Positions 9,692 to 31,000 of a DNA stretch of 64,000 bases are shown in pieces. Every line of letters starts with the position of its first letter. Within the stretch, counting starts at the first letter, position 1. The position numbers and the translations under genes were made by a program. The notes under the pieces were generated by a model. That model made no database searches and was not told where the DNA came from. It worked only from the letters and a program-made list of their open reading frames with translations. The DNA is from Tetrahymena thermophila SB210 (Eukaryota > Ciliophora > Oligohymenophorea > Hymenostomatida > Tetrahymenidae), in assembly GCF_000189635.1 (NCBI RefSeq), contig NW_002476378.1:62001-126000 (forward strand), read 5' to 3'.

Positions 9692-10888
9692 TCACTATTT
9701 GTGTTGATTTTACTTACTTGAAGGATTTAGTGTTTTAAAGTAATTTTAAACTTCCATCATTTCTTGTATATCATTATTAGCTTATTAAAGACATGATTCG
9801 AACTCTTTAAGCTAAGGTATTTTTTAAACAAATGATTCATACTCTTCTTAAAGTTTTTCTAATTTTTCTTTTATTTATTGTTCAACCATTTATTTTTTTT
9901 GCAATTCTAATTTAGTGTTGCATTTTTCATCTTGAAGACTATTAATTTAATCGACTTAACTTCTTGAGTATGATGGCACATTAGGATAATTTGGACTTTT
10001 AATAATCTTATCTATATTATCAGTAGTATTATTTACTAAGTTTTGAAGAGTTTTTTATTCTTCTATTATCTGTATTGCTTCTTAATCTAACTAATTTATT
10101 TTTGTTTAATAGTTTTCTTCTTCTGGTTTTTTTAATTTGTTCATACAAATACTTTCTTTACTTTAAAGGTCTATTTCTATCTTTTGTTAAAGATCTTAAA
10201 TTTTTGTATAATCAAATTAAGCTAGAGGGAGAATTTCTTCTTTTAATTTTTTTGTTAGAATTTTAAATAATCTTATTGTTTTACTTTTATCAGTATTATA
10301 ATTTATTATTTCTATCGTTGAATTAGTAAATGTATTATTCATAAAATTCATGAAATTCTTATTATTTTCTTGCTCTTCATTTTGACATAAGTCACTCTCA
10401 TCTTCATCTTCAAATGAAAATTCTTAGAATTCCCTATGATGATTTATTAAAATTAAAGAATTTTATTTATTTAAAGGGAGTGTATAGCGCAACCATTTCA
10501 AAATAAATTCTTCATTTGCATTTGCGGCTCTAATAGAAGAATTTATCACAATTACTACAAAATCAACTTATTATTCTTTTATATAATCCACAATATCGAT
10601 TAATGTATACCAATTATTTTATTATTTTTAATCTGTAAATCCTGGTGTATCCGTTACAATTAGTGTATAATCCTTTAATTCAATTTATTCAGTTTAAAAT
10701 ATTTATGTTGCGCCGCTAATGTTTGCTTTAGGTTTAAATTTAAAGCTTGAACACAAAAAATTGCAAAAGGTAGATTTTCCTGATCTAGAAAAGCCAGTTA
10801 CAAGAACTTTCTTAGTTGGCTTTGCTAGAATTTAGCCAACTATAAGAAGCACTAAAAAGATTATGGTAAAAGAATTTACTTTTTTCAT
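9692..10888 (-). CDS. AIG1/GIMAP-like GTPase with signal peptide (array copy 1)
   Basis: A single exon of 399 codons including TGA. Residues 1-23 form a hydrophobic leader with a plausible cleavage after ILA. A G domain follows at once: a P-loop of the GxxxxGKS/T type (GFSRSGKST) near residue 33, a DTPGF switch II motif near residue 80, and a VVIVIN strand. The usual T/NKxD specificity motif is not obvious; INHHREF occupies the expected place. The C-terminal half is charged and Gln-rich with coiled-coil character. This arrangement is characteristic of AIG1/GIMAP/Toc34-type septin-like GTPases, which bind GTP and often oligomerise on membranes. The leader, however, would place it in the secretory system. 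It is the first of four tandem paralogues and the most diverged in its P-loop. Confidence 0.85.
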
Positions 10889-12020
10889 TTGAGTGTATAT
10901 TATTTTTAGAATAATTTAAAAATTATAAAACTGGTAAATCTTTGAAATCTGATTTTGAGGCAACAAACAATAGATCAATTTATAAACAAATTAATCACAA
11001 ATATATAAATGATAATAATTAATTTTTGGAGATAAGGTGAAATAGTTGTTTGTGTGTGTGTCAGTCTCATATAATTATTATAAAATAAATTGATGTATTC
11101 AGCCAAATTATAAGAAATTAAATAATCAAAGTAAAAAAATAAAATAAATCATTTTATTTGTTACTTTTCTTGCAATTAATTAAAGAAATTGAAAAAATAT
11201 TTTTTTTAAAAGAACCTTTTTAACTCAGTTAAATCTGTTTTAGAATATTTAAGTTTTTAGAATGCAAACCTAATCTATTAAATAAAATATCAAAAATCAC
11301 TAATTTTTTGATAAAAATTTGATTTTCCACCCCTTATAAAATAAATGAAATAAAAATTTTAGGTTAATTTTTAATCTTTGATTTTTCCTCAAAAGATTAA
11401 TAGATTAGTTTATATAATTAGTAAATTAATTAATTCCCCACTTCGAGGAGACATACAAGTCAGTCATACATTCATAACCACAATCTTAAAGATGTTTGTT
11501 ACCTCTTCTAGATGGCATAAACATATATTAGAAATATAAATTATTAATCATATATATTAATACGTAATTTTAACTTTACGTAAGTCATATACTTGCTATT
11601 TTTGAATCATGAATATTTAGTATATAATTAAAGGAATGATTTTTAAAAGCTTAATAAATAATAAAATTTATTATATAATTTAAAACTAAAATATATTTTA
11701 AATATGATGAATGCTTAGATATTTATTATCAAGTTGTTGTGAATTAAATTAAGCTATGCATAATTAAAAAGATTTTTTTAAAATTTCGATACTAAATATA
11801 ATTTTTCTCAAAGTGCTTTTTATTATTAATATAGTAATTATTATAGATAGCGATTAAAAGTTTATCTACTAAAATATAATAATGATTTTAATACTTTGCT
11901 TGATTATATAAAATAATTAAATAGAAACGATAAACAGAGAATATTTACTAATTCAATTCAAAATAAAAAAATAAAATTTAAAATAATGAAATCAAATTTT
12001 ATAATTTTTAAGAAGTGTTT

Positions 12021-12067
<47 letters not shown>

Positions 12068-12893
12068 TAGCTTCTTATCAAAAGTTGAATTATTTTTATT
12101 TAATGATAATTCCATTCTTTTAATAACAAGCTTTTATTATCATTAAAGTTATTTTGAGAGGAATTTTAATTGTGTTTTACTCTCTATAATTAAAAATTAT
12201 TTTGATAATTACATATTTATTTGTTGCAATTTATGTTTATTTATTTGTTTAATAAGGATAGAATTTCATTCTTATTTTAATTTAAGCAATATTCTAAAAG
12301 TTAATAATACTAACAAAACTACCTTCATATTTTTTAAATAATTTTATTTGAAAAATTTTTTTTTTAAATTTTCTTTAAGTTTTTCCATAAAAAAATATTT
12401 TTTGACTCTTAATTTATTGGCTCATAATTAATGAGAATTTCAAGTAATTAGTTTATTTATCTATATTCTATTATGAAAGTGCTTATCTTTATTTTAAGGT
12501 TTGTTTAATTAATACATTTTAAAATGATATTTATCTTTATTATACACACAAACTTTAAGATATTAATTTTAATTATTTAATTTTTACTTTTTTTCTCTGA
12601 TTAATGCTAAATTATTTAATAATCTAATATTTATTTATTAATAGAGATTTTATTTATTTTGTATCAGGATAAACAATTATGTTTATCTTAAGAAATGCTC
12701 AATTAATTCATAAATTTTAAAATTATATGTTTATTAAAACAAAAAAATTTTAATTATTTAATTTTTACTTTTACTAAATATTAATATTTATGATTTAAAA
12801 ATTTAATAATTTTATTTATCAACATAAATTATTGCCTTTAAAATGATATTTCTGAGGTTATAGAAACATAGAATTAAAAAAGGAACTATCAAA
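10889..12893. other. Spacer between GTPase copies 1 and 2, duplicated sequence
   Basis: No gene is seen. The part upstream of copy 1 (about 10890-11990) aligns by eye with the part upstream of copy 2 (about 14124-15290), including a run around CAAAAATCAC...TTTTTTGATAAAAATTT and a later AACCACAATCTT segment. A (TTTA)n tract lies at 12018-12068. From about 12010 the sequence is copy 2 of the duplicated 3'-flank block. Confidence 0.65.
12018..12068. repeat. (TTTA)n microsatellite
   Basis: About twelve TTTA units lie at the start of the duplicated 3'-flank block. The corresponding site in the other flank copies has only two to four units, so the tract has expanded here. Confidence 0.9.
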
Positions 12894-14123
12894 TCATTAT
12901 TAATATTGCTTTTATTAGCTTAAGGAATTAAGTTCTTCAAAGTAATTTTTAACTTCCATCATTTCTTGAATATAATCATAACCTGAATGAAGACATTATT
13001 TAAACTCTTTATAAGGTATTTTTTAAAGAAGGGATTCAGAGTCTTCTTCAAGTTTTTCTAATTTTTCCTTAATTTTATATTCAATCATTCGCTATGATAA
13101 CATTTAAAATCTTATGTTGTATTTATCATCATGAAGTCTATTAATTTTATTGATTTAATTAATTTATTAAAATCTTTGATTGTCCTTCAAAAATAAATTT
13201 CCTGTATCAATCATGCTATTTGGATTATTTTGAATGTAACTTATATCAAGATCAATAGAATTTACTAAATTTTGAAGAGCTTTTTATTTGGCTTTTAATT
13301 ATATTAGTTCCTATTCAAGTTTAGTCATTTTTCTTAAATATTTTTCTTCTTCTGGCATTTTAAATTTTTTCATACAAAAACTTTCATTCTTTTAAAGTTC
13401 TGTTTCTATCTTATATTAAAGATCTTAAACTTTTGTATGATCTAATTAAGCTAGAGGGAGATATTCTTATTTTAATTTTTTTATTAGAATTTAAAATTCC
13501 TTTTCTGTTAAATCAAATGAAGTATTATAATTTATTTTCTCTATCGTAGAATTAGTAAAGGTATTTCTGATAAAATTAATAAAATTTTGATTATTTTCTT
13601 CGCTTTAGTTTTATTAGGGATCAATTTGATGATTTTGCGGGCACTCATCTTCATCTCCATGCTAGCAAAAACTTAATATATCCCTATAATAATTTACTAT
13701 AATTAAGGAATTCTATTTATTTAAAGGGAGAGTATAATGCAACCACTTCAAAATATATTCTTCATTTGAGGCTCTGATAGAATAATTTATCACAATTACT
13801 ACAAAATCAACTTATTCTTTTTTTACAAATTCCGCTATATCACTTAATATATTCGAATTATTTTATATATTGATATTTGCAAATCCAGGTGTATTGGTTA
13901 CAAAGAGTGTATAATCTTTTAATTCTAATTATTCAGTTTAAAATCTTTAATTTACGAAATCATCAACTTAAAACATGTAGCTCGAATGTAAAAAATTGCA
14001 AAAGGTAGATTTTCCTGCTCCAGTATGGCCAATTACAAGAACTTTCTTTTTTGGCTTTACCAGAATTTAGCCAATTATAAGAAGCACTAAAAAGGTTACG
14101 ATGAAAGAATTTACTTTTTTCAT
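12894..14123 (-). CDS. AIG1/GIMAP-like GTPase with signal peptide (array copy 2)
   Basis: A single exon of 410 codons including TGA. It has the same architecture as copy 1: a hydrophobic leader (MKKVNSFIVTFLVLLIIGQI), a P-loop GHTGAGKST, a VVIVIN strand, then a long Lys/Glu/Gln-rich coiled-coil region with Cys near the C terminus. The switch II motif reads NTPGF instead of DTPGF: the codon is AAT, where the other three copies have GAT. That Asp normally helps bind Mg2+ and supports hydrolysis, so this copy may bind nucleotide but hydrolyse poorly. The segment after the P-loop also diverges (YMFQVDD in place of FKFKAEA-type sequence). The reading frame is otherwise intact. Confidence 0.85.
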
Positions 14124-15405
14124 TTGAGAGTATATATTTTTCTAGTAATTTAAAAATTATAAAATTGATAAACCTTTGAAACAAATTTTAGAAAACAATA
14201 TTTCAATTTATCATCAAATTAATCACAAATATATAACTTTTATAAAATAATTTCTCAAAACAAGTGCATAAAGACAAATTATTAGAAATTAACATATTCA
14301 AAAGTCATAAAATATAAGATGAAAAAAAGAAAAAAAAAACTATTAGTTTGTTCTATTATTTTATTTTAGTTTCAATTATTTAGAATGAAAGAGTGATACT
14401 TCTTTTATAGATAATTCATATAATTTTATAAATTAAACTATTTAAAGCTTTTAAAATATCTATTAAATTTTCTTATGGTGTTTATTTTTCTTGTAATTAA
14501 AGAAATTGAAACATTTTTTTTTAAAAAGAGCCTTTAAAACTCATACTTAAATAGCTTAAATTTGTTTTAGAATACAAACTTAACCTACTAAATAAAATAT
14601 CAAAAATCACAAATTTTTTGATAAAAATTTTTTTTTCCACCTATATAAAATTAATGAAACAATATTTTAGGCTAATTTTTAATCTTCGATTTATTCTTCA
14701 AAAGATAAAAAAGATAAATAATATCCATACTTGGAGGAGACTAACAAATCATACTTGATTAACCACAATCTTTTAGATGATTACCCCTAATATATAGCAT
14801 AAACATACATTATAAATCTAAATTATTAATTATATATAGTAATATCCAAATTGTAAAAATATGTAAGTCATATACTTGTTTTTTTTGAACCATGAATATT
14901 TAGAAAAAAATTAAATTATAGATATGCCTTAATTAGTAATAAAATTATTTTACAATTAAAACTAAAATATATTTTAAATAAGATAGATGCTTAGAGATTT
15001 ACCTTCAAGTTATAATGAATTACTCAAAAACAATGCACATTGGATATAATAAAACTCTCAATACTTAATATAATTTATTTAAAAGTATTTTTTATTAATT
15101 ATAGCAATAATTGTTAGAGATTGCAATTAAAAGTTTATTTAATAAAATAGATAAAAGATTTTAATATTTTGCTTGACTAAATATAATAATTAAATAGTAG
15201 AGACAAATACAGAAAATTTACTAATTCAATTTAAAATACAGAAAAGAAAATTTTGAAATCTTAATTTTAAAATCTTTTAAAAAAATAAAATTTAAAATAA
15301 TGAAAGAATATTTTATAATTTAAAAATAAATTTTTTCTAAATAATTAATAAAATTCTTCAAAATAAGATTTAATTTAAAGTTAGTATAAACAAGAAATTA
15401 TCAAA
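14124..15405. other. Spacer between GTPase copies 2 and 3
   Basis: No gene is seen. Up to about 15290 it is homologous to the region 5' of GTPase copy 1 (see 10889-12893). The 3' flank of copy 3 (about 15290-15405) is short and lacks the repeated 3'-flank block found after copies 1, 2 and 4, so a deletion or a different duplication endpoint is likely here. Confidence 0.6.
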
Positions 15406-16671
15406 TCATTATTATTATTATTATTGCTTTTATTTGCTTAATGAATTAAGTGCTTCAAAATAATTTTTAACTTCTACCATTTCTTATATTTCTTAATTAG
15501 CTGAATGAAGGCATTATTTGAACTCTTTAAGCTCAGGTATTTTTTAAACAAGTGATTCTGACTCTTCTTCAAGTTTTTCTAATTTTTCTTTAATTTTTTG
15601 TTCAATCATTTACTATGATAGTATTTAAATTCTTGTGTTGCTTTTATCATCTTGAAGTCTATTCATTTAATTGATTTAAATCGTTGAATGAAATGTATAA
15701 GTTGTAGTCCACCATAAAAATCCTGTTGTAATTTTTTCACGAGGGTTATCAATAATATTATTTATGTCATGATTAATAGAATCTACTAAATTTTGAAGTG
15801 TCTTTTATTCTGCTTTTAATTCCATTACTTCCTATTCAAGCTTAACCATTTTTCTTTAATTCTTTTCTTCTTATGGTATTTTATATTTGCTAAAACAAAA
15901 ACCTTCGTTTTTATAGAGTTCTATTTCTATTTTATTTTAAAGATCATAAACTTTTGTATGATCTAATTAAGCTAGAGGGAGATGTTTTTCTTTTAGTCTT
16001 TTTATTAGAATTCTAAATTCTTTGCCTGTTAAATACATTTTAGTATTATAACTTATTTTCTCTATCGTAGAATTAGTAAAGGTATTTTTGATAAAATTCA
16101 TAAAATTCTTATTATTTTCTTCACTTTTGCTTAATTAGGGATCAGTTTGGTTCTATTCCAAACACTGATCTTCATTTTCATTTTCATCTTCATCTTCATA
16201 TGAGCAAAAATTTTAGATTTTCCTATAATGGTTAACTAAAATTAAGGAATTATATTTGTTTAAAGGGAGAGTATAACGCAACCACTTCAAAATATACTCT
16301 TCATTTTAGGCTCTAATAGAATAATTAATCACAATTACTACAAAATCAACTTATTCTTTTTTTACAAATTCTACAATATCACTTAATATCTTCCAATTAT
16401 TTTATTTTTTGGGATCTGTAAATCCAGGTGTATCTGTTACAAGAAGTGAAAAATCTTTTAATTCAATTTATTCAGTTTAAAATATTTAGGTTACAGAGTC
16501 ACTACTTGCTTCAGCTTTAAACTTGGAACTTGAACATAAAAAATTGCAAAAGGTAGACTTTCCTGATCCAGTATGGCCAATTACAATAACTTTCTTTTTT
16601 GACTTTGCCAGTGTTTAGCCAATTACAAGAAGCACTAAAGAGATTATGATGAAAGAATTTACTTTTTTCAT
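15406..16671 (-). CDS. AIG1/GIMAP-like GTPase with signal peptide (array copy 3)
   Basis: A single exon of 422 codons including TGA, the longest of the four. The leader MKKVNSFIIISLVLLVIGQT ends with a signal-peptidase-like TLA. The G domain shows a P-loop GHTGSGKST, switch II DTPGF and VVIVIN. The region after the G domain carries an expanded acidic stretch of Asp/Glu/Asn codons near 16185-16200 that is shorter in the other copies. The C-terminal part is predicted coiled coil with regularly spaced Leu/Ile and charged residues. It is closest to copy 4 over the first 60 residues. A role on or inside endomembranes is inferred from the leader only. Confidence 0.87.
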
Positions 16672-17755
16672 TTAAATATTTATTTTTTTCTAATAATTTA
16701 AAATTATAAAATTAGTGAATCTCTGATATTCAATTTTGAGAGGAATATAAAAATTTTTTAGTAAATTAATAATAAATACATAAATGAGAATTACTTTCTT
16801 TTGGAAATTATTTTGAAGTTGTTATTTATTTTCATCCCTAATAATTATTATATAAACAAATTCTAAAAATTGATGTATCAAATAAAATTATTAGAAATTA
16901 AAATATTCAAAAGTCATTAAAATTTAGATAAAAAATAATTTAAAATATAGTATGTCTTAATTAATTTGTTGCTCTATTATTTATTTTATTTTAGTTTCAA
17001 TTATTTAGAATGAAATATATATAAATAATTAGCTGTATAAGTCAAAAATATAGAATATCCTGATTCTAATTTAAGTATATATAAAAATAAATAAAAATAA
17101 AAATACTTTTTTATATATATATATGGAGGTATATTTATTTATTTATTTATAGCTTCTTATAAAAGTTGAATTTTTTTGTTTAATGATAATTGTATCCTTT
17201 TAAAAACAAGCTTTTGTTATTAATCAAGTTATTTTGAGAGGAATTTTAATTAAATTTTATTCTCAAAAAATGTAAAAAAATATTTTAAGTCTTTTTATAG
17301 TTTCATTTTAATAAATAATTATAAATAGCTTTTTCCTTATAAGGAGAACTTTTGTATTTTTCTTAATAAATAATATTAAATAAATTACTTTAGTTTTTAA
17401 GTAAAATTTATGATTTTTTTTTGAAATTATTAGTTTATTTATTTATTTAAATTATTTTATCTAAATGTTTATCTTTATATTAAGGAAATATAAACTAATT
17501 TTTTTTATTTTTAAAATAAAATATTTATGATATGAACAAAAAAAAAGCACACACAAATTTTAAGAGGTTTTAATAATTTAATTTTTACAATATTTAAATG
17601 AAAAATGTAAATACTTTAAAAAAATTCTCTCTTTATTTATTAATAAATAGTAAGTAATTTTTAATTTATTATCTATGAAAAGAAATAATTAATTACCTTT
17701 AAATTTATATTTATGATGTTAATTGAAGCTTTGAATAAAAAAAGAAACTACAAAA
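16672..17755. other. Spacer between GTPase copies 3 and 4, includes 3'-flank block copy 3
   Basis: No gene is present. The first half resembles the 5' regions of the other GTPase genes. From about 17090 to 17262 it carries the third copy of the 3'-flank block described at 9007-9691. Confidence 0.65.
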
Positions 17756-19006
17756 TCATTATTAATATTGCTTTTATTTACTTAACGAATTACGTGCTTC
17801 AAAGTAATTTTTAACTACAATCATTTCTTGTATATCTTCATTAGCTGAATGAAGGCATTATTTGAACTCTTAAAGCTAAGGTATTTTTTAAACAAGCTAT
17901 TCAAACTCTTCTTTATGTTTTTCTAAATTTTCTTTAATTTATTGTTAAATAATTTATTAATATAGCATTTTATTTTATGAGTCGTTTTTATCATCATTAA
18001 GCCTATTCATTTTATGAATTTAATGAGTTGAGTGATATCTAGTCTTAAATAAATCTCCACTATCAATCCAGCGACTTGGGTTATTATGAATGTAATTTAT
18101 ATCATCATCAATAGAATTTATTAAATTCTGAAGATTTGTTTATTCTGCTTTTAATTATGTTACTTCCTATTCAAGCTTAGCCATTTCTCTTTAATACTTT
18201 TCTTCTTCTAATTTTTTAAACTTGTTCATACAAAAACTTTCGTTCTTTTAAAGTTCTGTTATTATCTTATCTTAAAGATCTTAAACTTTTGTATGATCTA
18301 ATTAAGCTAGAGGGAAATATTCTTATTTTAATTTTTTTTTTAGAATTTTAAATTCCTTTGTTGTTATATTAATATCAATATTATAATTTATTTTCTCTAT
18401 CGTAGAATTGGTAAAGGTATTTTTGATAAAATTGATAAAATTCTGATTATTTTCTTCACTTTTGCTTAATTTGGGATCAGTTTGACAATTTTATGCGAAC
18501 TCATCTTCGTAATCATTTTCAACTTCATCTCCATATGAGCAAAAATTTTAGATATCCCTATAATGGTTAACTAAAATTAAGGAATTATATTTGTTTAAAG
18601 GGAGAGTATAACGCAACCACTTCAAAATATACTCTTCATTTGAGGCTCTGATAGAATAATTAATCACAATTACTACAAAATCAACTTATTCTTTTTTTAC
18701 AAAATCTACAATATCACTTAATATCTTCCAATTATTTTATTTTTTGGGATCTGTAAATCCAGGTGTATCGGTTACAAAGAGTGTATAATCTTTTAATTCT
18801 AATTATTCAGTTTAAAATATTTAGGTTACTGAGTCACTACTTGCTTCAGCTTTAAACTTGAAGCTTGAACATAAAAAATTGCAAAAGGTAGACTTTCCTG
18901 ATCCAGTATGGCCAATTACAATAACTTTTTTCTTTGTCTTTGCCAGAGTTTATCTAATTAAAAGAAGCACTAAAAAGATTATGATGAAAGAATTTACTTT
19001 TTTCAT
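17756..19006 (-). CDS. AIG1/GIMAP-like GTPase with signal peptide (array copy 4)
   Basis: A single exon of 417 codons including TGA. The leader is MKKVNSFIIIFLVLLLIRQT, with an Arg replacing Gly near its end, followed by the P-loop GHTGSGKST, switch II DTPGF and a VVIVIN-type strand. The first 60 residues match copy 3 almost exactly. A stretch of about 45 bases (about 18770-18815) matches copy 2 instead, so the gene looks like a mosaic from gene conversion. The C-terminal region is coiled coil, as in the paralogues. It is presumably the first unit of the array in transcription order, since all four copies are transcribed leftward. Confidence 0.87.
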
Positions 19007-22000
19007 TTGAAATTATATTTTTTTATAATAATTTAAAATTTTAAATAAATACTTTTGGAAATTATGTTGAAATATTTTTTTGATTTTCTAATAATTAATT
19101 ATTAAACAAATTCTAAATTGATGTATCAAATAAAATTATTAGAAATTGACATATTCAAAAGTCGGTCATTAAAAATTAGATAAAAAATAATTTAAAATAT
19201 AGTATGTCTTATATATGTTAATATATGTTATTTAATTTAAACATGACGGCAAAGTCAGTTAATTTAACTTTAACCACCTAAACTTAATTATAGACTAATT
19301 TTTATTAAAAATATCTATTTAATTTTTCCATCTTGTATGCTTTTATTGTATTTAGTATTGCAGTTTTTAAATTCTAATTCACTATTTTCATCAGAAATTT
19401 GATCATGCACTTACCAAATCTTTAATTTTGGTAAAGTGGAAAAAGGATTTTTGTTCAAAAATTTATAAATTTATTTTTAAAGATCTATTTATTTATTCTG
19501 CTTATTATGCAGGTAAGCCTGTTCCTAAAAAAGTAGTGCACTATGAATATGTTTTGATAGAAGTTGGGTATGGGTTCTTACTGTCAGCAGTAGATAATAA
19601 AAATAAGTACAACACCTACAGATTTCACTTAGATTATTCTTGATAAAAATAATGTTGCTCATTTAAACCTAATTGCTAGGGATAGCCTTTGATTTGGTAG
19701 ATGAAGTTGCAGAAACATTTGATTAATTCTCATAAGAGTTCAATAACAAAATTTTTTTTTAGGAGTTTCAATGATTAAAATATATTAAGATAAGACAAAA
19801 TATATACAAATAGAAATAAACTTTTTTATATTTTATCAAATTACAAAAATGTCTAAAAAATGAAAATTTAATACTCTTCAAAACTGCTTATTTAGACATA
19901 TTAAATTGGAATACATAGCAAAACGCCTTAGTGCGCTTTTATGTTATTTATAAAAATAATTATATGTTAAATAACTATGAATGTTATTAATATTCTTTAT
20001 AGTAAAAAATCATTTTCTTTTCATATTTTGTGCAAATTTTTGATTTATTAACTTCAGATTTCCCTTTATTGGATTTTATCATAAAAAGATATATGCTTAA
20101 TACTTTATAATTCTGATTGTGATTTCTTCATTTCATTTTACTATTTAAATTCTTTTATTGAATAAAAAGCATTTACTCTTCAGATAATAATATCTGATAA
20201 GAATTAAAGTGTTATGTATGTATGTATTTATTAATTTTGCTCTAATTTTAGAAAGCATCATATTAATTTTTGAATTAATGATAGATACCTTAATTCTAAC
20301 TAAAAAATACATTCTTAGTATATCCAACTTAAATTATTTAGCATATTTTTTTGCTGTGTCATTAAGGAATTATCTAACTTGATTTGTTGAGTTAATAAAA
20401 TGACAATCAAAAAAATATAAAGGAAATTCACTTTATAAATCAAATGTAACTAACTATAAAAAAAAAAAGTTAAAAAAACTTCACTCAAAGCTTTAAATAG
20501 GGTAAAATAAAAATAAAACTATGTCGAAATTATGTTTTATTAGTGAATTTTACTTCAGAAGAAATTAATAGTTGGATAATAATTAATTGTGGAATTAAAA
20601 TGTAAGGTTTCATTTAATAATTAATTTTAAATTAAGAATAATGGCTGGTGGTATTTACTTTTACTATTGAGTTAGATCAATTTTTTTATAGCCAATTAAT
20701 CAATCAATAAATAAATAAATTAAAAAGAAAATACATAATTTATATTATTACATAAAGATAAATTTCAATCAGCTTCAAACCAAATTTGATGAAGAGCTTA
20801 ACCATTTTGAAATTTTTATTAAAGCAATTTAAAACCTCATTAATTTAATTAAGCTCAGTAATTATATTTGATAATATTCTATATTTCAAAATGTATTTTT
20901 TAATTTTATATTTATTCTCAGATTAGTAACAAAATATATATTTGTTTTAATCTTTCTATTTATTTATTTTAAATATTTTTAACCAACAAATTAATTAAAA
21001 AAAAGCTAACTAATTTTATTCTGTAAACATACAATATAATTTCTTTTAAACGAAAATCTTAAATATATATGTAACCATTTTTACATCTATCTGTCAATTA
21101 ATAGTTGAATAAATTAACTCGCTTGATCATTCAGGTATCCAAAAATATATTTCATAAAATTCATTAAATTACAAAAAACAAATTAGTTTTTTAGAAATTT
21201 TTCAAACTATTTACATATACAAGTAATTTACTCTAAAAATTTTTAAGTTTTAGTAAATTTCAATTAAAAATAATACTTTTTCCTATTTAAAATGATATTT
21301 TAATCTTATAAAGAAGAGGTTTATTAAACTTTATTCAAGATTTAGATAGGTTTTGTAAAAACCTTTGTATAATTTTGTAAATTCTTATATAAAGTAAGCT
21401 AATGATAATTTGCATTTTTTGTTTACGGTTGTAAATTAATTTATATGTTTTATTTCAGCTGTATTAAATATTTAAATTAATCTAGATAAAATATGGAAGA
21501 AAAAAAATCTAAATATCTTATTTTTAATTTATTGAATGAACAATCACTCAAATTATTAAATAGAAAAAGTTAAGATAATTTGTATTTCCCTAATTACAGT
21601 AATTAATCAATTTAAATCTTTTATATTCCAACCCATAAATATTTGATATTTAAGCGAATTTAGAAAAGATATACTAAAATATCTAAATATCTTATTTATA
21701 TTTTCAATGCAAATTCTGACATAAAGGTAGTTAAGATAAATTTTATTTTATTATCATTTATTGCAACTATTATTAGTAAATAATCATCTTTTTCACTTAT
21801 TTTTAATGCATTAGAAATACTAAAACAATTCTAAAAATAATCTTCTACATATATTGTCAGCAAAAAATTTTTTTGATTTGCCTATTCTTTAAAAATTAAT
21901 AAAAATATATCCATCGCTGATCGCTGGAAAGTAACTTTGACTCTCCTAATTCAATATAGATTATTTTTAATTTAGTTTACATTCCAAGTAAAATAGCCTT

Positions 22001-22202
22001 AATTTAATCTGGGGTTGCTTAATCTATAAAGAAATAATTATTTATGTTGCTTATCATTAAAAGTTTACATTGAGATCTCCAAGAAAGAAATTTTCTGGAT
22101 ATAAATTAGAAATGAAAAAAGGCGAAGAGAGAAACAAATATAATTAAATAAATAAAATAAAATAATAATAAATAAGTAAATAAAATGAGATAAAAAAATA
22201 TT
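19007..22202. other. Long intergenic region, one possible gene fragment
   Basis: About 3.2 kb lacks an assignable gene. The segment 19380-19505 shares sequence with 7700-7815 near the other edge of the GTPase array. The segment 19428-19780 has coding-like composition (see the separate entry). From 19800 to 22000 the sequence is AT-rich and I see nothing that could be supported as a gene. Confidence 0.55.
19428..19780 (+). pseudogene. Possible gene fragment or frameshifted relic
   Basis: The stretch 19428-19643 is open and its second half has unusually mixed, protein-like codons (for example KPVPKKVVHYEYVLIEVGYG). A different frame then continues as coding-like at about 19650-19770 (IAFDLVDEVAETFDQF) before stopping at a TGA. 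A frameshift or an unrecognised intron would join them. I do not recognise the product. No convincing start or signal peptide is visible, so this may be a decayed gene. Confidence 0.3.
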
Positions 22203-25200
22203 ATGCTCTTGAATATAATTTACCTGGTGCTTATTAGCCATATAATAGCTTAAAACTATGATTACAATACTGCAAATGTTTGTGATTTTAGCTCGTAGGG
22301 TAAATCTCAAAATTAAGTTGCTTATATGTGTACTCACTAAGCTCTTGGTTCTTGCTAGCTACAATAAGCTGTATAATCTGATGGCTACTCCAGCTTTGCA
22401 GAGTACGGATTCGGTGGTTATGGAAGCTACCCTCCCTCAAATTATTGCTGTAGATGTTTTTAAATTTAAGTCTAAGACAGTGATGCTCCTGCAAAGGATA
22501 TTATTGTTTAAGGTATAAACACTGGTGGTGATGTTATCAGTAACTAATTCGATTTATCTATGATTGCTGGTGGTTTTGGGGCTAATAACGGATGTGCTAA
22601 CAAAGTCTTTGCATGGAATGGTGGTCCTTGGGACGGACGCGCTGGTCCTGCCTAATATCCTTCTAGTGCTGCTGGTAATTGGTGCAGCGATCCTACATAA
22701 GATAATTCTCAATGCTAAAATCCTTACTCTGGTGGTATCACCTAAAAAAGTGATTGTGCTAAGTTACCTAACAATAACTTAACCTAACTATGTGAATACT
22801 CTTTTGATACAAAATGGAGAACTAGCAACGGGTTAAGGGAAACTATTATGAAAGAAGTAAGATGCCCTGCTGGATTGATTAGATTATCAGGCTGTAACAA
22901 AGATGATCCATCTTTACCTTACCCTTCTGGAAAGCTCTCTGCTAGTGATCCTAATATTATAAGAGGAAAATTGACTCATATGTGGGATTGTAAATATTTT
23001 ATTACTTTCATAATTTTATTATTATTGATTTTTACTAAGTTTAAATATGGAAATAAAATTTGATTTAAAAAATATCTATTAAATTAATCTATTTGAACAT
23101 AATTTAATTGATTATCAAACATAAAAGAAATAAATAAATTATTTACTTAATTTTGTTGTTCCAAGCAAAATTTATAAATTAATTTACTGAATGTGATTTC
23201 AGGCAGGCGTGTTGATTTTATCACAAAAAAATTGAATTTTTTGTTAATGTTTCAAAAAAATTGTAAACAGACAGATTTCATAAAAATAAAAATTAGCAAA
23301 CCTGATTTTCATTAAATATCTTTAAAATAAAATACCCTTTCTTTATTCTTTTCAGAAAAAACAATACATTCTTTATTAAATTTAATTCTCTCTAATAAAA
23401 CTCTCAGCAATTAAAATATATTAAAGCTATATTTTGTACTTTATATAGGTTGCAAACCATCTTGCTCATGGACTGGAAATGTATTCCAAGCTAATGGAAC
23501 TGCTGTCATGTCTTGTGATGCTTCAGGCACCAATATACTTGGTACTAATACTTCGTTTTAATGTGAGAATCTTACTTGTGATCCTAGTTGTAAAACCTGC
23601 TCAGAATCCAATGATGCAAACAAATGCACAGCTTGCAATACTGGTTCCTACTTAAGCTCAAACCCTGGAAAATGTACTACTTGTCCTCCTTAGTTAAATT
23701 GCTTAGAATGTTCCAATAGCGTTACATGCATAACTTGTTAAACTGGATATATTTTATAGAATGATGGATCTTGTAAGTAACCTTGTGATTAAAGTTGTAA
23801 AACTTGCAGCACTCCTTAAGATGCTACTTAATGCACTTCTTGCAATGATGGATACTATCTGAGTGGATCTTCCGTTGGTACTTGTTCTAAATGCCCATCA
23901 AATTGTACTAGCTGCCTTTCTGATATTAGCTGTTCAGCTTGCACTGATAATTATGTTTTAATAAGTGGAAGTTGCTAACCTTGCAACAGTCCATGTTTAT
24001 CTTGTATAACAGATACAAATACTTGTACAAGCTGTATTCAAGGTTATACTTTAAATGGAAATACATGCCAAGCAACTTGCGATTCTACTTGTAAAACTTG
24101 CAGTAAAAACTAAGATGCAACTTAATGTACTTCTTGTTATTCTGGATTCTATTTAAATGGATCTACTATAGGATCATGTGTTTAATGTTCTTCAAATTGC
24201 AGCAGTTGCACTTCCCAAAATAGCTGCTAAACTTGCACCAACAACACCATATTAGTGAGTGGTTAATGCTTATCTTGTACGAGCCCATGCTAAACATGCT
24301 AGACTTCAGTCACAAATTGCTTATCTTGTGTTTAAGGGTATACTTTGGATGGAAATACTTGTACTGCTTCAAACACTGGAAATTGTCATCCTAGTTGCTA
24401 AACATGCAGTAAACCAAACGATTAAAATTTTTGCACTTCATGCCCTACAGGATATCTTGTTCTTGGAGGTAACTGTTAGCCTTGTTAAAAGCCATGCTAG
24501 AACTGTAGTGGAAATCCTAATAGTTGCACTTCATGCATTGCAAATTATTCATTAAGTGGAAACACATGTGTTGGTAGTAATTAAGATTAAACATAGTGCC
24601 ATCCCAGCTGCAAAACTTGCAGCGTTTAGCATGACTAAAATTCTTGTACCTCATGTTTTGATGGGTTTTTAATTTTAGGCAATGGAAATTGTTAGCCTTG
24701 CCAACCTCCTTGTTTTAACTGCTCTGGTAATCCTAATAGTTGTACTTCATGCATTGCAAATTATTCATTAAGTGGAAACACATGTGTTGGTAGTAATTAA
24801 GATTAAACATAGTGTCACTCCAGCTGCAAAACTTGCAGCGTTTAGCATGACTAAAATGCTTGTACCTCATGTTTTGATGGGTTTTTAATTTTAGGAAATG
24901 GAAATTGTTAACCTTGCTAGCCTCCTTGTTTTAACTGCTCTGAAAATCCTAATAGTTGCACTTCATGCATTGCAAATTATTCATTAAGTGGAAACACTTG
25001 TGTTGGTAGTAATTAAGATTAAACATAGTGTCACCCCAGCTGTAAAACTTGCAGCGTTTAGCATGACTAAAATGCTTGTACCTCCTGTTTTGATGGGTTT
25101 TTAATTTTGGGTAATGGAAATTGTTAGCCTTGCCAACCTCCTTGTTTTAACTGCTCTGGTAATCCTAATAATTGTACTGCATGTGCAAGCGGCTATGCTT

Positions 25201-25355
25201 TCTAAAACGGTGTATGTTCAAGAATACTAAGTGATAGTTCATAATGTAATTTAACCTGCTAAACTTGCACATAAGCTAATAACGCAAATGCATGTGCATC
25301 ATGTGTGAGTGGATTTGTTCTTACCTCAAATAATGCTTGTATCAAATAAATTTGA
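22203..25355 (+). CDS. Secreted GH45 endoglucanase-like domain (circularly permuted order) fused to furin-like Cys repeats
   Basis: Two exons, 22203-22989 and 23449-25355, give 898 codons including TGA. Residues 1-16 are a signal peptide ending HIIA. Next comes the part of a GH45 cellulase that normally lies after the N-terminal signature: VAYMC, SNYCCRCF (about residue 80), NTGGD with D110, SNQFD with D117, GGFGANNGC and RCPAGLIRLSGCNKDD (about 220-235). Only then does the GH45 N-terminal signature appear, WDCCKPSCSW with D262, followed by a SCDASG...ILG...C segment. The three positions match the catalytic and assisting aspartates known in GH45 (D10, D121 and D114 of Humicola Cel45A). The rest, from about residue 305, is dense CxxC furin/growth-factor-receptor-like repeats, including three tandem 72-residue units, with no transmembrane anchor. 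The likely role is hydrolysis or loosening of beta-1,4-glucan outside the cell or in food vacuoles. Confidence 0.85.
22990..23448 (+). other. Intron splitting the GH45 signature
   Basis: A 459-base AT-rich GT..AG intron divides the first Cys codon of WDCC (T|GT). It lies immediately after the catalytic Asp codon and in phase with both exons. Removing it restores the contiguous GH45 signature, which independently supports the gene model. Confidence 0.8.
24510..25157 (+). repeat. Three tandem 216-bp coding repeats
   Basis: The motif encoding GNPNSC-type sequence starts at 24510, 24726, 24942 and again at 25158, which gives three units of exactly 216 bp (72 residues). They are nearly identical at nucleotide level, including silent positions. 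Each unit carries about ten cysteines. The high identity points to recent unequal exchange, or to an assembly artefact worth excluding. Confidence 0.85.
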
Positions 25356-28092
25356 TTACATTATTTACATATAAATTATTAAAAAACTCTATAAACATTT
25401 ATATTAGTAGAAACTTGAATAATATTATGTTAAATTTAAAACAAAATCTAAATTTCTAAAGTTTAATTATTATAATTCCTCGCTACTTTAGTCTTCTATA
25501 GAGTACTAAAAATTTAGCTGAGGGTTTCTTTTTATTAAAAATTAAAAAATATTAGAATTTTATAAATTTGATATAGCAATGATAAAAACATACATATATA
25601 TATTTTTTAATTTCCTTAATTTATCTCTTACGCTAAATATCTAATCTAAAATTAAATATTTTATGAAAATCTATAAAGAAGTTTCTCCAATAAAAAATAA
25701 AAATGAGTAGAATTGCTGTAAAAATTTTAAACAGTAATTAATAGCCTTTGTTGATGTTAATTGATTTTTTATGATATGATTAATTTTTTTAATAAGAATT
25801 CTATCATATAATAAATAATTAGGGATACATTATTATCATTTATAAAGATATACTTATTTAAATATCTAATTTTCTTTTAAATGAAGTTAATTTTTATAAT
25901 CTATAAAAAGACCCATCAATAATTAAACTAATATTTTTTAAATAATTGATTTACTGAAAATCTTATTAAATGAATTAAATTAAATAAAAATAAGTATTTA
26001 AATACTTGTCAATTATTAATATAAATTTAAATATGTAATTAATTTTATTAAGTTTTTGATTGATTTGTTTTTTTAAATACAAATTTTTGTTTGAAATTTT
26101 TTAAGGATAAGAAATTCAATTTTCAAACAAGTACATACACTGAAAATCAATTATGATAAACTAAAATAATAAAATAATTATACGTTTGGAATGATCAATA
26201 CAATAAAAAATGTAATATTTATTCACTCGTGTTTAGAATAAAAATTTGATAATTACTTACAATAAGATTAAATGAAATCACTAAATATTTAAGATAATAA
26301 ACAAATAAATTGATGAAAATTTATTAAAAAATGAGCAATCCAATAAATTATAGTTAATAATAATCAGGTAAGCAATAATTTTATTTCATTATAAACAATA
26401 AAAAGTCATTTCTACTGATAAATAATTTGATTTTTATAAGATAAAGATTTTCTTTTTCTCTTTTTGGAAACTAGCTGTTAAATTATTAAATAAGTTAATT
26501 TATGATAATTACATTTGATTTTTTTATTTGTAATTCTACTACTCTAAGATTGTTTTTTAAAAAAGTATTTTGACTTTTTGTATTTTGCTAAATCTTAATT
26601 AGAGGAGTGTAGTATTTAATTTTTATCATATCTATTTTGAACAGATATTTATTCAAATACTAATAACAGGTAAATATTACATCAAAAACTCTATCAGTTA
26701 ATTAAGAAATTAATTAAGATTTAAAAGTTTTAACGTTCAAATTGCTATGTAATTTAATTTGATTTCAATTTTTATAAATTAAATCTATGATTTGTAGGGA
26801 AATTCATAAAGTAATGGTAATCATAGACTATCTTTCTCTCTCTCTCTGTTAAAAGATAAAATTTAATAATAAAATTATCTTTCGACATGCTTATCAGAAT
26901 TATTAAGATTCAAAAATTACTTTGCTATTATGTAATATTTACATATAATTTTACTCAAAATGTTTTATTTAATTTATAAAAATTAATATCTTTCGATACT
27001 GCTTAACTAATAAAGAAGAAAATGTTTAAAAAAAGCAAAATCAAATATGGCTAATAATCATTTAGACAAAATTTTGCCTAAATTAGATTATTTGATTTTG
27101 ATTAATATGTTTAAAAGGATATTAATTTTTTTATCTTTTTATCTGTAAGATTTTTCAACGGTCTTTTTAATTAATCCCCTAAAAAGATATATATATCTAT
27201 TATCAATCAATCAAAAAATATAAACATGTAGGAACAAATGAGCTTATAGCTTTTCAAAAGAAAATTAGGTTAGTTTATCTGCAAAAAATTAAGATTATTC
27301 CAATTTACAAAAAAAATAGTTAATTACCAAAAAAGAAGATTGGCGAACTAAGGAAAATTAATTGGCTCAGAAAAAGCCTTGTTATTTAAAAATAGATGAA
27401 ATTAATTAATTAATTAATATTAAGTTCTACTAGAAAGATGTTAGAAAAAATTTAATTAAAAAAGATTCAAATATAAATATTTTATTAGAAATTTAAATTG
27501 AATGAAGGTTAGCGAATCAAACATGTTTTTAATATCAAAGATACTCACTCGCTCATATATTTAATATATAAAAAATGAATGCATAATATCTATCTTTTTA
27601 TTTTCCTATCTATCTATTCATGCTTTATTACATTCATTTTTCCTACTTTAATAATAATAATTAAAGTTAGCGCATTTTGTTTTTTATTAAATACATACAT
27701 ACATACATACATACATACATACAAATAAATAAATAATAAATACCCATTTTATAACGATCATATTTTCAACTAAAAGAGATCTATTAAAAACAAACAAATA
27801 CTATCTATCTATCTTCTGAAATCATAAAAAAAAATAAACAAATAAAAAACAAAGTTTTTTAATAAAGTAAAGATTAACAAGAAAAAGTAGAAACAAAAAC
27901 AGTCAAACAAAAAATCAATCAGACTAGAGAGCTGTATTTTTCACCAAAAAACTGAAATAATCTTCAAAAATACCTAAAGAGAAACAACTGCCTTAACAAA
28001 ATAGACAGCTAGCTTCAAGAAATACTTCAATCCTTTCTTAACCATTTCTTTCCTATAGTACGATTTACTCCTGAAAAAACTTTGAAAAATAA
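25356..28092. other. Intergenic region with microsatellites and Myb 5' leader
   Basis: No supported gene is present. A 57-codon basic ORF (27226-27399, reading TAG as Gln) is present but is within the range expected by chance when only TGA stops. Simple repeats include TC repeats near 26827-26846 and (ACAT)n at 27691-27722. The A-rich, C-containing stretch from about 27800 looks like the 5' UTR of the Myb gene. Confidence 0.5.
27691..27722. repeat. (ACAT)n microsatellite
   Basis: About eight perfect ACAT units lie roughly 370 bases upstream of the Myb gene start codon. Confidence 0.9.
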
Positions 28093-31000
28093 ATGTTCTA
28101 AGACAATTTGATCAACTCTAGCCAATACTTGTAAATTGCATAGACTGGCTCGCAATAGCAACAATAATAACAGCAATAGCAACTACAATCACAGCCTAAT
28201 CGTCAAATCACTAACTCTGATGCTATGATTAAAGAATATTGCAAGAAAGAGATGCTAGAAATTCAGCGCTCGTTTGAATCGCATCCAAAGAGTCTCTAAA
28301 CTTGCCCATCTCCTTAATCTAACTAGCAGACTGTTACTCCTACCAACAATAGCTTTTCTACCTAGCAAATTATTTCTTAAATAGATAATACTCAGTAGTC
28401 AAACCTATAGACTGGAGTAATCAGCGACTTCAATTTTGCTGTAAATATTGATCAGCTTATGAAATTTAATGATGAAGAAGACAACAATCCAAAACAAAAT
28501 GCTTCTGGGAATGCCTCCACATAAAACTCAAACAATGGAAACCAAGGAAGATGGACGAAGGAAGAGCACTTGCGCTTTGTAGAAGGACTTTCTCTATATG
28601 GAAAAAATTGGAAGAAAGTAGAAGAGCATGTAGGATCAAGAACTGGAGCTTAGATTCGTTCACATGCTTAAAAATTCTTCAATAAATTAGAAAGAGACTA
28701 TAGCAAAAAGCACGGATTATTAATAAGCTTAAATACAAGCAGCTCAACTAAATAAAGCAACCAAATAAATAATGAAAATGTAAATACTTTATCTTAAATA
28801 TAAATGCAAGGAACTTCCAAAAAATCTTAATCTTACTTATTGGGACAATCACAACACAGCAATAACTCTAATTAAACCAAGATACTTGGAGAAAAGAATC
28901 AAAATAATGCCAAGAACATCCTCAATAACATCTAATAATAGCAGCAGCAATAATAATAATAAATTGACTAAAACTTCCTTATAGGGTAAGTGATAGAAGC
29001 CTCTTTGCAAGCAGCCTAGTAATCCTTGGGTATTCCTACTTAGAATTCTGTTATTAATTCTGCACCAAGTATAAATTAAAGCCACCCTTGCTTAAACCAA
29101 ACTATATAATAAAACCCTGTTCATATTCTTACTAAACCTACCTAAAGTGATCCTTTTTTGTCTGCTCAATTTAATCTTAATCTTCAATAATAATAATCTG
29201 ATATAAACCAAACAAACTTTGACATTCCATCCTTCGTTCCCTCTATTTCCTTAAGAAACAGATCTGACTCAGTTGCGAGCAACTTTACTATGAGTAAACA
29301 TTTTATTTATTAAAGTATTTTCCCCCCTTAAGAATAATTTTGGCAAAAATGTCTTGCATTTTAAATCCATCACAATTTAATTAGTATCTATCTATATATA
29401 TATCTCTCTCTTAGAATCAAATAAAAGAAATAAGAAATCAAATAAATAAATAGATAGATAGATAGATACATTCAATTAGTTAAAATCTTATGATTAATCA
29501 GTTTAAATTTTAATAGCTACTGATTGGATATTAATTACTTTTACATTTTAAATTCAATTAATAATATCTAATTTGCTCCAAAATTAACTCCATCTAAATT
29601 TTGAATTGATACTTTGCAACCCTCAAATATTTAAAAGACAAAAATTAACAACATTCATTTTTAATCTTTCATTTTGCGGAATCTGTAAATTAATGCGCAA
29701 GCTTACAAATCTCAAATTTTTAAATAGAATGAAATTATTTGAAGTTAGTTTATTTTTTTAAGAATTTTGTTTTCAAAATAAAAATAAAATAATATTTTAG
29801 AGTTGATTGTAAAAAATAAGAAAATATTTTTCTAAAAAATAAATATTTTTCCATTTAAAAAGAAAAATATTCTCTTTCTTTTGTATTACAAATGTATTAT
29901 TAGTTCATTTGAATTTTATAACATATGAATTTTTAATTTGTTTTTCCTTTGAATTTTATATTTACTTTTTGCTTTTCGATTTTTACTTTTAATTTAAATA
30001 AAATACTTTATAAAAAGTGTCAGACGACGATCAAAAAATTACAGATGAAGACCTTAAAAAAATTAAGGAGTCTCTACCTCAAATTGTCAACTCACAAAGT
30101 AAGATTGAGATTTAAAGATTGATTGCATTTTTAAATTTGTATCTAATAAATAGGTTTAAACGAATGCATAAATCAGTATAGTTAATTGACTCTAAACCTT
30201 CAAAAGCAATTGCTCTAATCAAATAGTAATATAATTAATTATTAAATAGTCTATTAAAAAAATTGATTGAAAAAACAATATCTTCTTTATCAAAAAATCT
30301 TTGTCAAAAAAAAAAATACTTTGTAGATCTTTCAAACTAAATAAATTAAATTTTTAAAATAAAGGGATATTTTAAATACAAAGAAATTGTTTTTGAATCA
30401 TTAATTTTTACATTTGAAAAATATTTTATATTTCAATAAATTTTATTAAAATTAGATGTCTAAAACAATATTCAGCTGCAATAATAGATAAATACTTTGT
30501 AGAGTGCAGTTCAATTTTTAAATGCATATTCAAGTATTAACAAATAGGCTGAAATATAATAATCACAAACAAATGAAACTATTAACAATGAAAATATACC
30601 TATACTGATAGTTTAAAATTCTTAATCAGAATTTAGTAACTCAAATAGAATACTCTAAAGCAAGTAAAAAGGAGAAGAAAATCAAAGCAACAAAGAAAAC
30701 AATTCGAGCTTGGAGATTGTCAATAACAGCAAAAAAAACATTATATGTGACAATAATAAAAAAATTCCTACTAAATAAATATTTAATTAAAATAACAATC
30801 TCTAAAACTGTATTGTTTAAGACTCTGACCGTCCAACCGATTATGAAAGTTTCTTCAACTTTGTTCTGTAAATATTAATTGTTAACATATTTATAATTGT
30901 TTATTAATATTTTAAACAAACTTATTAATTAGGAAAAAGTATGGTAAAATATTTGATCAACCATAAAAGTCTTTAAACTCTAACAACAACATTTGGTCTC

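Follow-up and report, generated by a model that had tools for sequence, protein, structure and literature searches.

A predicted natural circular permutant of the GH45 endoglucanase domain in Tetrahymena thermophila

In the classical GH45 architecture, the WDCC segment carrying the catalytic base lies N-terminal to the rest of the domain. At one locus of Tetrahymena thermophila the corresponding segment is encoded behind the body of the domain, which raises the question whether both parts belong to one circularly permuted protein and, if so, whether such a protein would still be an enzyme. The locus is contained in a window of 64,000 nucleotides, which is the whole stretch of DNA analysed here and corresponds to C159:62001-126000 of the assembly. 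With a probability of about 90%, the encoded domain would be a GH45 endoglucanase domain of the subfamily-A type that has undergone circular permutation in nature, the segment with the catalytic base having been moved from the front to the back.

Translated with code 6, in which TAA and TAG stand for Gln, the gene is predicted from its sequence to consist of two exons (22185-22989 and 23449-25355) separated by one phase-1 intron, and to encode a protein of 903 amino acids. The GH45 domain extends to about residue 307-312 and is followed by a Cys-rich tail. In the original prediction, the gene had ended at 23570; instead of forming a bare domain, the chain runs on through the tail to 25355. The start ATG at 22185 is favoured over that at 22203 because the copies L010 and L011, introduced below, offer only the corresponding upstream ATG. 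The three aspartates first numbered D110, D117, and D262 by counting from 22203 are the right residues, and they become D116, D123, and D268 when counted from 22185. The features of the gene are as follows.

22185 to 22989, plus strand: exon 1, encoding the signal-peptide-like start, the GH45 body, the linker, and GKLTHMWD, and ending with base 1 of the codon that follows; start ATG 22185 from comparison of the paralogs
22185 to 22253, plus strand: signal-peptide-like N terminus of 23 amino acids ending ..IIAQ/N, as judged from hydropathy; ..IAQ/NYDY is found in 5/5 copies
22281 to 22355, plus strand: N-terminal segment with Cys33, Cys49, and Cys57 at spacings of 16 and 8, to be compared with the classical C31-C47-C56; from cysteine spacing and the bacterial profile, not significant by shuffling
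22329 to 22907, plus strand: GH45 body from about classical C47 to the SGCxxDD end, including YCCRCF, NTGGD, NQFD, GGFGANNGC, and RCPAGLIRLSGCNKDD; from phmmer, Pfam, and the bacterial profile
22530 to 22532, plus strand: Asp116, counterpart of Cel45A Asp114 by its position in the phmmer alignment, which we take to be the assisting residue
22551 to 22553, plus strand: Asp123, counterpart of the Cel45A catalytic acid Asp121 by phmmer alignment; role as given in an excerpt of PMC5829257
22908 to 22964, plus strand: linker of 19 residues between the classical C-terminal and the classical N-terminal ends, from the sequence
22986 to 22988, plus strand: Asp268, the final full codon of exon 1 and counterpart of the Cel45A catalytic base Asp10 by phmmer alignment; role likewise as given in the excerpt of PMC5829257
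22990 to 23448, plus strand: predicted phase-1 intron, GTAAAT..TATATAG, 17% GC
23449 to 25355, plus strand: exon 2, encoding the remainder of the moved N-terminal GH45 segment and then the Cys-rich tail, with a TGA stop at 25353-25355; from the sequence and the paralogs
23449 to 23564, plus strand: exon-2 part of the moved classical N-terminal segment, CCKPSCSW..VMSCDASG..SFQC, up to Cys307; from phmmer and the bacterial profile
23580 to 25352, plus strand: Cys-rich, VSP-like tail with 101 Cys and three similar units at 216-bp spacing; from Pfam PF03302 (VSP) and the cysteine count

The hydropathy of the N terminus, with an 11-residue maximum of 2.73, suggests that the protein is probably secreted. 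The intron splits the first Cys codon of WDCC after base 1, and WD C/C would be restored once the exons are joined. The VSP family PF03302 matches the whole 903-amino acid protein with an E value of 1.1e-23. Within the tail, the three units at 24517-25146 are very similar to each other and lie 216 bp apart, with parallel minus-strand ORFs at 24517, 24733, and 24949, which suggests a recent internal duplication.

The rotated order is evident from the motifs themselves. In a single frame, VAYMC (22317), YCCRC (22443), TGGD (22521), NQFD (22542), GGFG (22569), and SGCNKDD (22887) are followed by WDC/CKPSC across the intron; all motifs named in the original prediction were thus recovered in the order given there, and phmmer and a bacterial profile agree with that order. 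A phmmer search of the mature domain against PDB sequences yielded 10 distinct matches at E <= 0.1, named GH45 protein, endoglucanase (V), cellulase, or endo-1,4-glucanase, the best being 5gly with a whole-sequence E value of 2e-20. In the 5gly alignment, three stretches of the domain are found out of order, residues 238-284 corresponding to chain residues 5-49, residues 10-123 to 33-145, and residues 159-222 to 148-209. The exchange is present in all three phmmer alignments shown (of 10 matched PDB sequences), and the PDB chains are of classical order wherever matches were displayed as alignments (3 and 5 of 10 matches in two phmmer runs). The Pfam model PF02015, proposed at the outset as a check, matches the domain alone with 78.7 bits against a cut-off of 27, again in three stretches, and identifies it as a GH45 family member. 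A profile from 48 bacterial sequences, 47 of which are of demonstrated classical order while that of L071 could not be scored, aligns model positions 23-221 to domain residues 4-210 (41.1 bits) and positions 1-47 to residues 238-285 (35.1 bits). Two segments homologous to one reference stand, accordingly, in exchanged order in one gene, and the conserved intron described below points to a single transcript; this protein does not have the classical architecture, in which the domain begins with the WDCC segment.

Rearranging the domain to the classical order merged two Pfam stretches into one (domain residues 1-170 corresponding to profile positions 2-148) and did not increase the total score, which was 76.4 vs 78.7 bits with Pfam and 75.8 vs 76.8 bits with phmmer. 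We take this to mean that local matches had already been found piecewise and that an insertion still splits off a third piece. This insertion is located between NGC and SGGIT, at about 22596-22724 of the window (residues ~138-180), and contains an extra pair of cysteines, Cys167 and Cys177; it is unmatched in the printed PDB alignments and partly aligned in bacterial sequences.

As a control for the order in other genomes, an order-independent DNA pattern for WDCCKP(S/T)C, admitting a few other residues at one place, was used. It retrieved 57 stretches, all of them from genome_contigs, and viral_contigs gave no match. The number of frames examined was also 57, since L064 and L066 had two WDCCKP(S/T)C frames each and L032 and L038 had none. 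The ciliate profile was matched by 56 of the 57 bacterial frames, L060 being the exception, and both pieces of it by 48. Eight frames matched one piece only: those of L020, L035, and L065 extend past the end of the contig, those of L024, L029, L042, and L043 comprise 12-52 amino acids, and that of L071 shows no body. The WDCC piece precedes the other in all 48 frames with both matches and follows it in none. The set of 48 sequences used for the bacterial profile and for the tyrosine count given below consists of frames in which WDCC is followed by 180 residues or more, namely 47 of the order-tested frames plus L071, the cut-off L054 being left out. Profile scans for relatives in genome_contigs and viral_contigs, based on two narrow peptide patterns each, found none, and tblastn of 160 body residues against phages and plasmids gave nothing at E 0.01. 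Among the sequences examined, the classical order is the rule, and the rotated order is seen in the T. thermophila genome only.

Within that genome (a 101-Mb assembly of 445 contigs), the permuted gene is not alone. Five GH45 bodies and five WDCC segments were found, one pair per locus, on three contigs; the window locus is on C159, one copy is on C304, and three are on C146 (the copies other than that of the window being L009-L012). The WDCC segment lies downstream of the body on the same strand in all five loci, and the intron cuts the same codon in each of them. An upstream WDCC exon in the classical position, a finding that would have spoken against the original prediction, was sought throughout the genome and none was seen. 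Searches with PF02015, with the WDCC segment, and with the body likewise revealed only the five permuted genes and no classical GH45 copy, with the reservation that such searches score best candidates only and a very diverged classical copy could be missed; the DPBB_1 profile PF03330 had no match in the genome. The domain of 290 residues aligns without gaps across the five copies. The introns are 459, 454, 425, 181, and 169 nucleotides long, with differing remainders modulo 3, and an in-frame TGA inside the intron ends the exon-1 frame in three of the five copies; when the exon-2 frame is followed upstream into the intron, such a TGA stops it in all five. The domain as a whole is under purifying selection, with dN/dS values of 0.07-0.24 over ten pairs, and the moved segment alone gives 0.00-0.30 (ten pairs). 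The linker shows no clear constraint, the values ranging from 0 to 0.95 in a 15-codon stretch with very few changes and seven computable pairs. The three aspartates and all cysteines of the domain are invariant in the five copies. A circular permutation with three retained aspartates is supported because two homology searches, five paralogs with the same order and intron, and the lack of any other WDCC segment among the matches found agree.

The copies lie in duplicated segments. In the examined region of 18-30 kb of the window, piecewise similarity extends from about 19.5 kb to 25.5 kb, and comparison of 19506-25544 with L009-L012 shows about 1.0-2.7 kb of upstream sequence to be 69-84% alike in the pieces reported; this similarity may represent shared regulatory DNA or simply recent duplication. 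Elsewhere in the window, the minus-strand ORFs at 9692-11098, 12894-14210, 15406-17223, and 17756-19165 encode MMR_HSR1-type GTPase domains, three of which also match AIG1, and apparently form a small cluster of related GTPases (9692-19165), while the ORF at 28075-29493 is Myb-like and DNA-binding (PF00249, 55.1 bits). By its sequence features, the assembly is that of a ciliate macronucleus-like genome: the GC content is 16-31% in 2-kb bins, (CCCCAA)n arrays are found, among the matches listed, where contig C4 begins and, inverted, at 465.6-465.9 kb of the same contig (the backward control being uninformative for this repeat), and ciliate telomerase RNA (RF00025) is matched once over its full length, with 161.9 bits.

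Where the ring was opened can be approached through the cysteines. In Cel45A, C31, C47, and C56 are spaced by 16 and 9 residues according to the alignments, and in 11 bacterial sequences with full lists the spacings are 16-17 and 8-10. In the ciliate domain, this spacing occurs at the N-terminal end with Cys33, Cys49, and Cys57 (16 and 8) and at the C-terminal end with Cys291 and Cys307 (16), and the bacterial profile covers its model positions 23-47 twice. The original prediction had placed the cut between the SGCE-like and the VAYSC-like segments. The multiple alignment calculated with MAFFT agrees with this place, as it pairs Cys33 with C47 and Cys49 with C56. The cysteine spacing hints otherwise, namely that VAYMC would be the C47 site and that the C31-C47 loop would occur twice, once at each end, as would be expected of a tandem duplication that was later trimmed. 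Shuffling does not confirm the hint, since the two ends do not align with each other better than shuffled sequences do. The numbers of shuffles out of 5000 that attain the observed score are 2055, 3183, 1259, 1253, and 1252 for the window copy, L009, L010, L011, and L012, respectively; with a sub-profile the N-terminal copy was not singled out, and the C-terminal one was weak. That the protein is an active permuted cellulase containing the C31-C47 loop twice (Cys33-Cys49 and Cys291-Cys307), as a frozen intermediate of permutation by duplication, can only be put forward tentatively and is not the expected case. If the loop were duplicated, its two copies could be rivals for a single site in the fold or could occupy it jointly.

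Cel45A has 14 cysteines. Across residues 33-307 of the ciliate protein there are 18, comprising a candidate for each classical position and four extra ones. In the alignment with Cel45A (1hd5), domain residues D245, D100, and D93, i.e., D268, D123, and D116 of the full-length protein, stand opposite D10, D121, and D114, bearing out the claim that base, acid, and assisting residue are kept. Asp123, typical of GH45 in general, is invariant in all 33 sequences of the multiple alignment; Asp268 in WDCC, typical of subfamilies A and B, and Asp116, typical of subfamily A, are found in all five copies. In Cel45A, D10 acts as base and D121 as acid according to the excerpt of PMC5829257, which also gives their separation as 11.3 A. 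Three features point to a domain that works, namely the aspartates, the cysteine framework, and purifying selection. Real beta-glucanase activity appears rather probable. It is less certain than was implied originally, because the Tyr conserved in GH45 two residues before the base (Cel45A Tyr8) is replaced by Met266 in all five copies. At the position before WDCC, 47 of the 48 bacterial sequences have Tyr and one has Phe. The passages available of PMC10909974 describe this Tyr as conserved across GH45 and expansins, and in the excerpt of PMC5829257 the exchange Y18A at the equivalent site of PcCel45A is reported to leave about 20% of the activity on lichenan.

With this replacement in five out of five copies, the protein might be a true permutant and a poor enzyme, serving as a glucan-binding, expansin-like, or surface coat domain on a Cys-rich stalk. 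The long VSP-like tail would suit such a function, as would the C termini of two of the five copies. L009 and L011 end in a hydrophobic, anchor-like sequence (..NSSILKLS.., from hydropathy), which the window copy, L010, and L012 do not have, and the copies may differ as anchored versus soluble forms. A Cys-rich tail combined with an anchor is an arrangement reminiscent of ciliate surface proteins. The retention of all three aspartates in every copy argues to the contrary, as it includes the base that expansins and GH45 subfamily C are described as lacking in the available passages of PMC10909974, and so does the purifying selection on the domain; a binding or coat function of this kind is a minority prospect.

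Rotated order and linker would also permit closure between chains as well as within one, in which case the moved segment would complete the barrel of a neighbouring molecule and the working unit would be a dimer or a chain of molecules. A linker of 19 residues is probably long enough for closure within the chain, and a domain swap is considered improbable. Finally, the splice is predicted, and the GH45 parts could reside on different transcripts or a classical first exon could be missing from the gene model or the assembly. Such an artefact would have to be reconciled with five copies, spread over three contigs, that agree in order, splice position, and intron phase, with the finding of only five WDCC segments in 101 Mb, all of them downstream of a body, and with purifying selection on both parts; it is considered very improbable.

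Under the preferred reading of a circularly permuted and active domain, the moved strand and loop with the base (GKxTxxWDCCKPSCSW) would follow the rest of the domain, the 19-residue linker bridging the former ends. The exported chain would fold into the usual six-stranded double-psi barrel, in which the C-terminal segment would fill in for the absent N-terminal strand and be held there by disulfides. Asp123 would donate the proton, Asp268 would be the general base, and Asp116 would assist, so that beta-1,4-glucan or mixed-linkage glucan would be hydrolysed by single displacement with inversion. The Cys-rich tail would act as a stalk, to which two sister copies would add a hydrophobic end resembling a membrane or GPI anchor. 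The permuted form would probably have originated by tandem duplication and trimming, and segmental duplication would then have multiplied it to five copies.

Compared with GH45 subfamily A (Humicola insolens Cel45A/EGV, 2ENG, 5GLY/5GLX), the ciliate protein has in common the motifs GKxTxxWDCCKPSCxW, CCxC, TGGD, N(Q/H)FD, GGxG..GC, and CPAxL/I..GCxxxD, the three catalytic-site aspartates, and a candidate for each classical cysteine; it differs in the rotated order, in the exchange of Tyr8 for Met, in the extra insertion of about 40 residues with two Cys, and in the Cys-rich tail. With bacterial GH45 proteins (Fibrobacter, Myxococcales/Polyangiaceae, and others) it shares WDCCKPSC, motifs of the (Q/E/H)FD type, a similar C31-C47-C56 spacing, and the two-piece profile match, whereas these have the classical order, Tyr or Phe before WDCC, and CGxC or CNxC where the ciliate protein has CCxC, and often lack Asp at the TGGD site. 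Natural circular permutants are found elsewhere, as in GH70 versus GH13, in concanavalin A, and in the swaposins. Others are the subject of work on cpRAS (PMC2430557) and of a review (PMC3320104). In these families, too, the fold is rotated and the motifs are kept, and none of them is GH45.

No natural GH45 permutant had been known to the original prediction, and none was present among the literature matches listed for circular permutation combined with GH45, cellulase, endoglucanase, Cel45, or expansin, or among those listed for Tetrahymena or ciliates combined with GH45 or cellulase. In the only paper containing both "circular permutation" and "GH45", the former term stands, in the accessible part of its text, in a reference about CBMs, and a word search of the text of a GH45 paper on soil invertebrates found neither ciliates nor permutation mentioned. 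A conserved, naturally permuted form of a well-known enzyme family is new, albeit not a new kind of system.

On the full-length scan of the 903-amino acid protein, PF02015 was not reported at E <= 0.01 and VSP was the only Pfam call, so that such genes could be overlooked by routine annotation. For the GH45 family, the finding would mean that the general base of a small disulfide-rich enzyme has been moved from one end to the other with the catalytic aspartates retained. If the protein is active, it would be a natural example of a GH45 barrel that tolerates new termini. This would be of use in enzyme engineering, where stalks or binding modules could be attached at a new position, and the overlapping ends of the protein might reveal how permutation came about by duplication.
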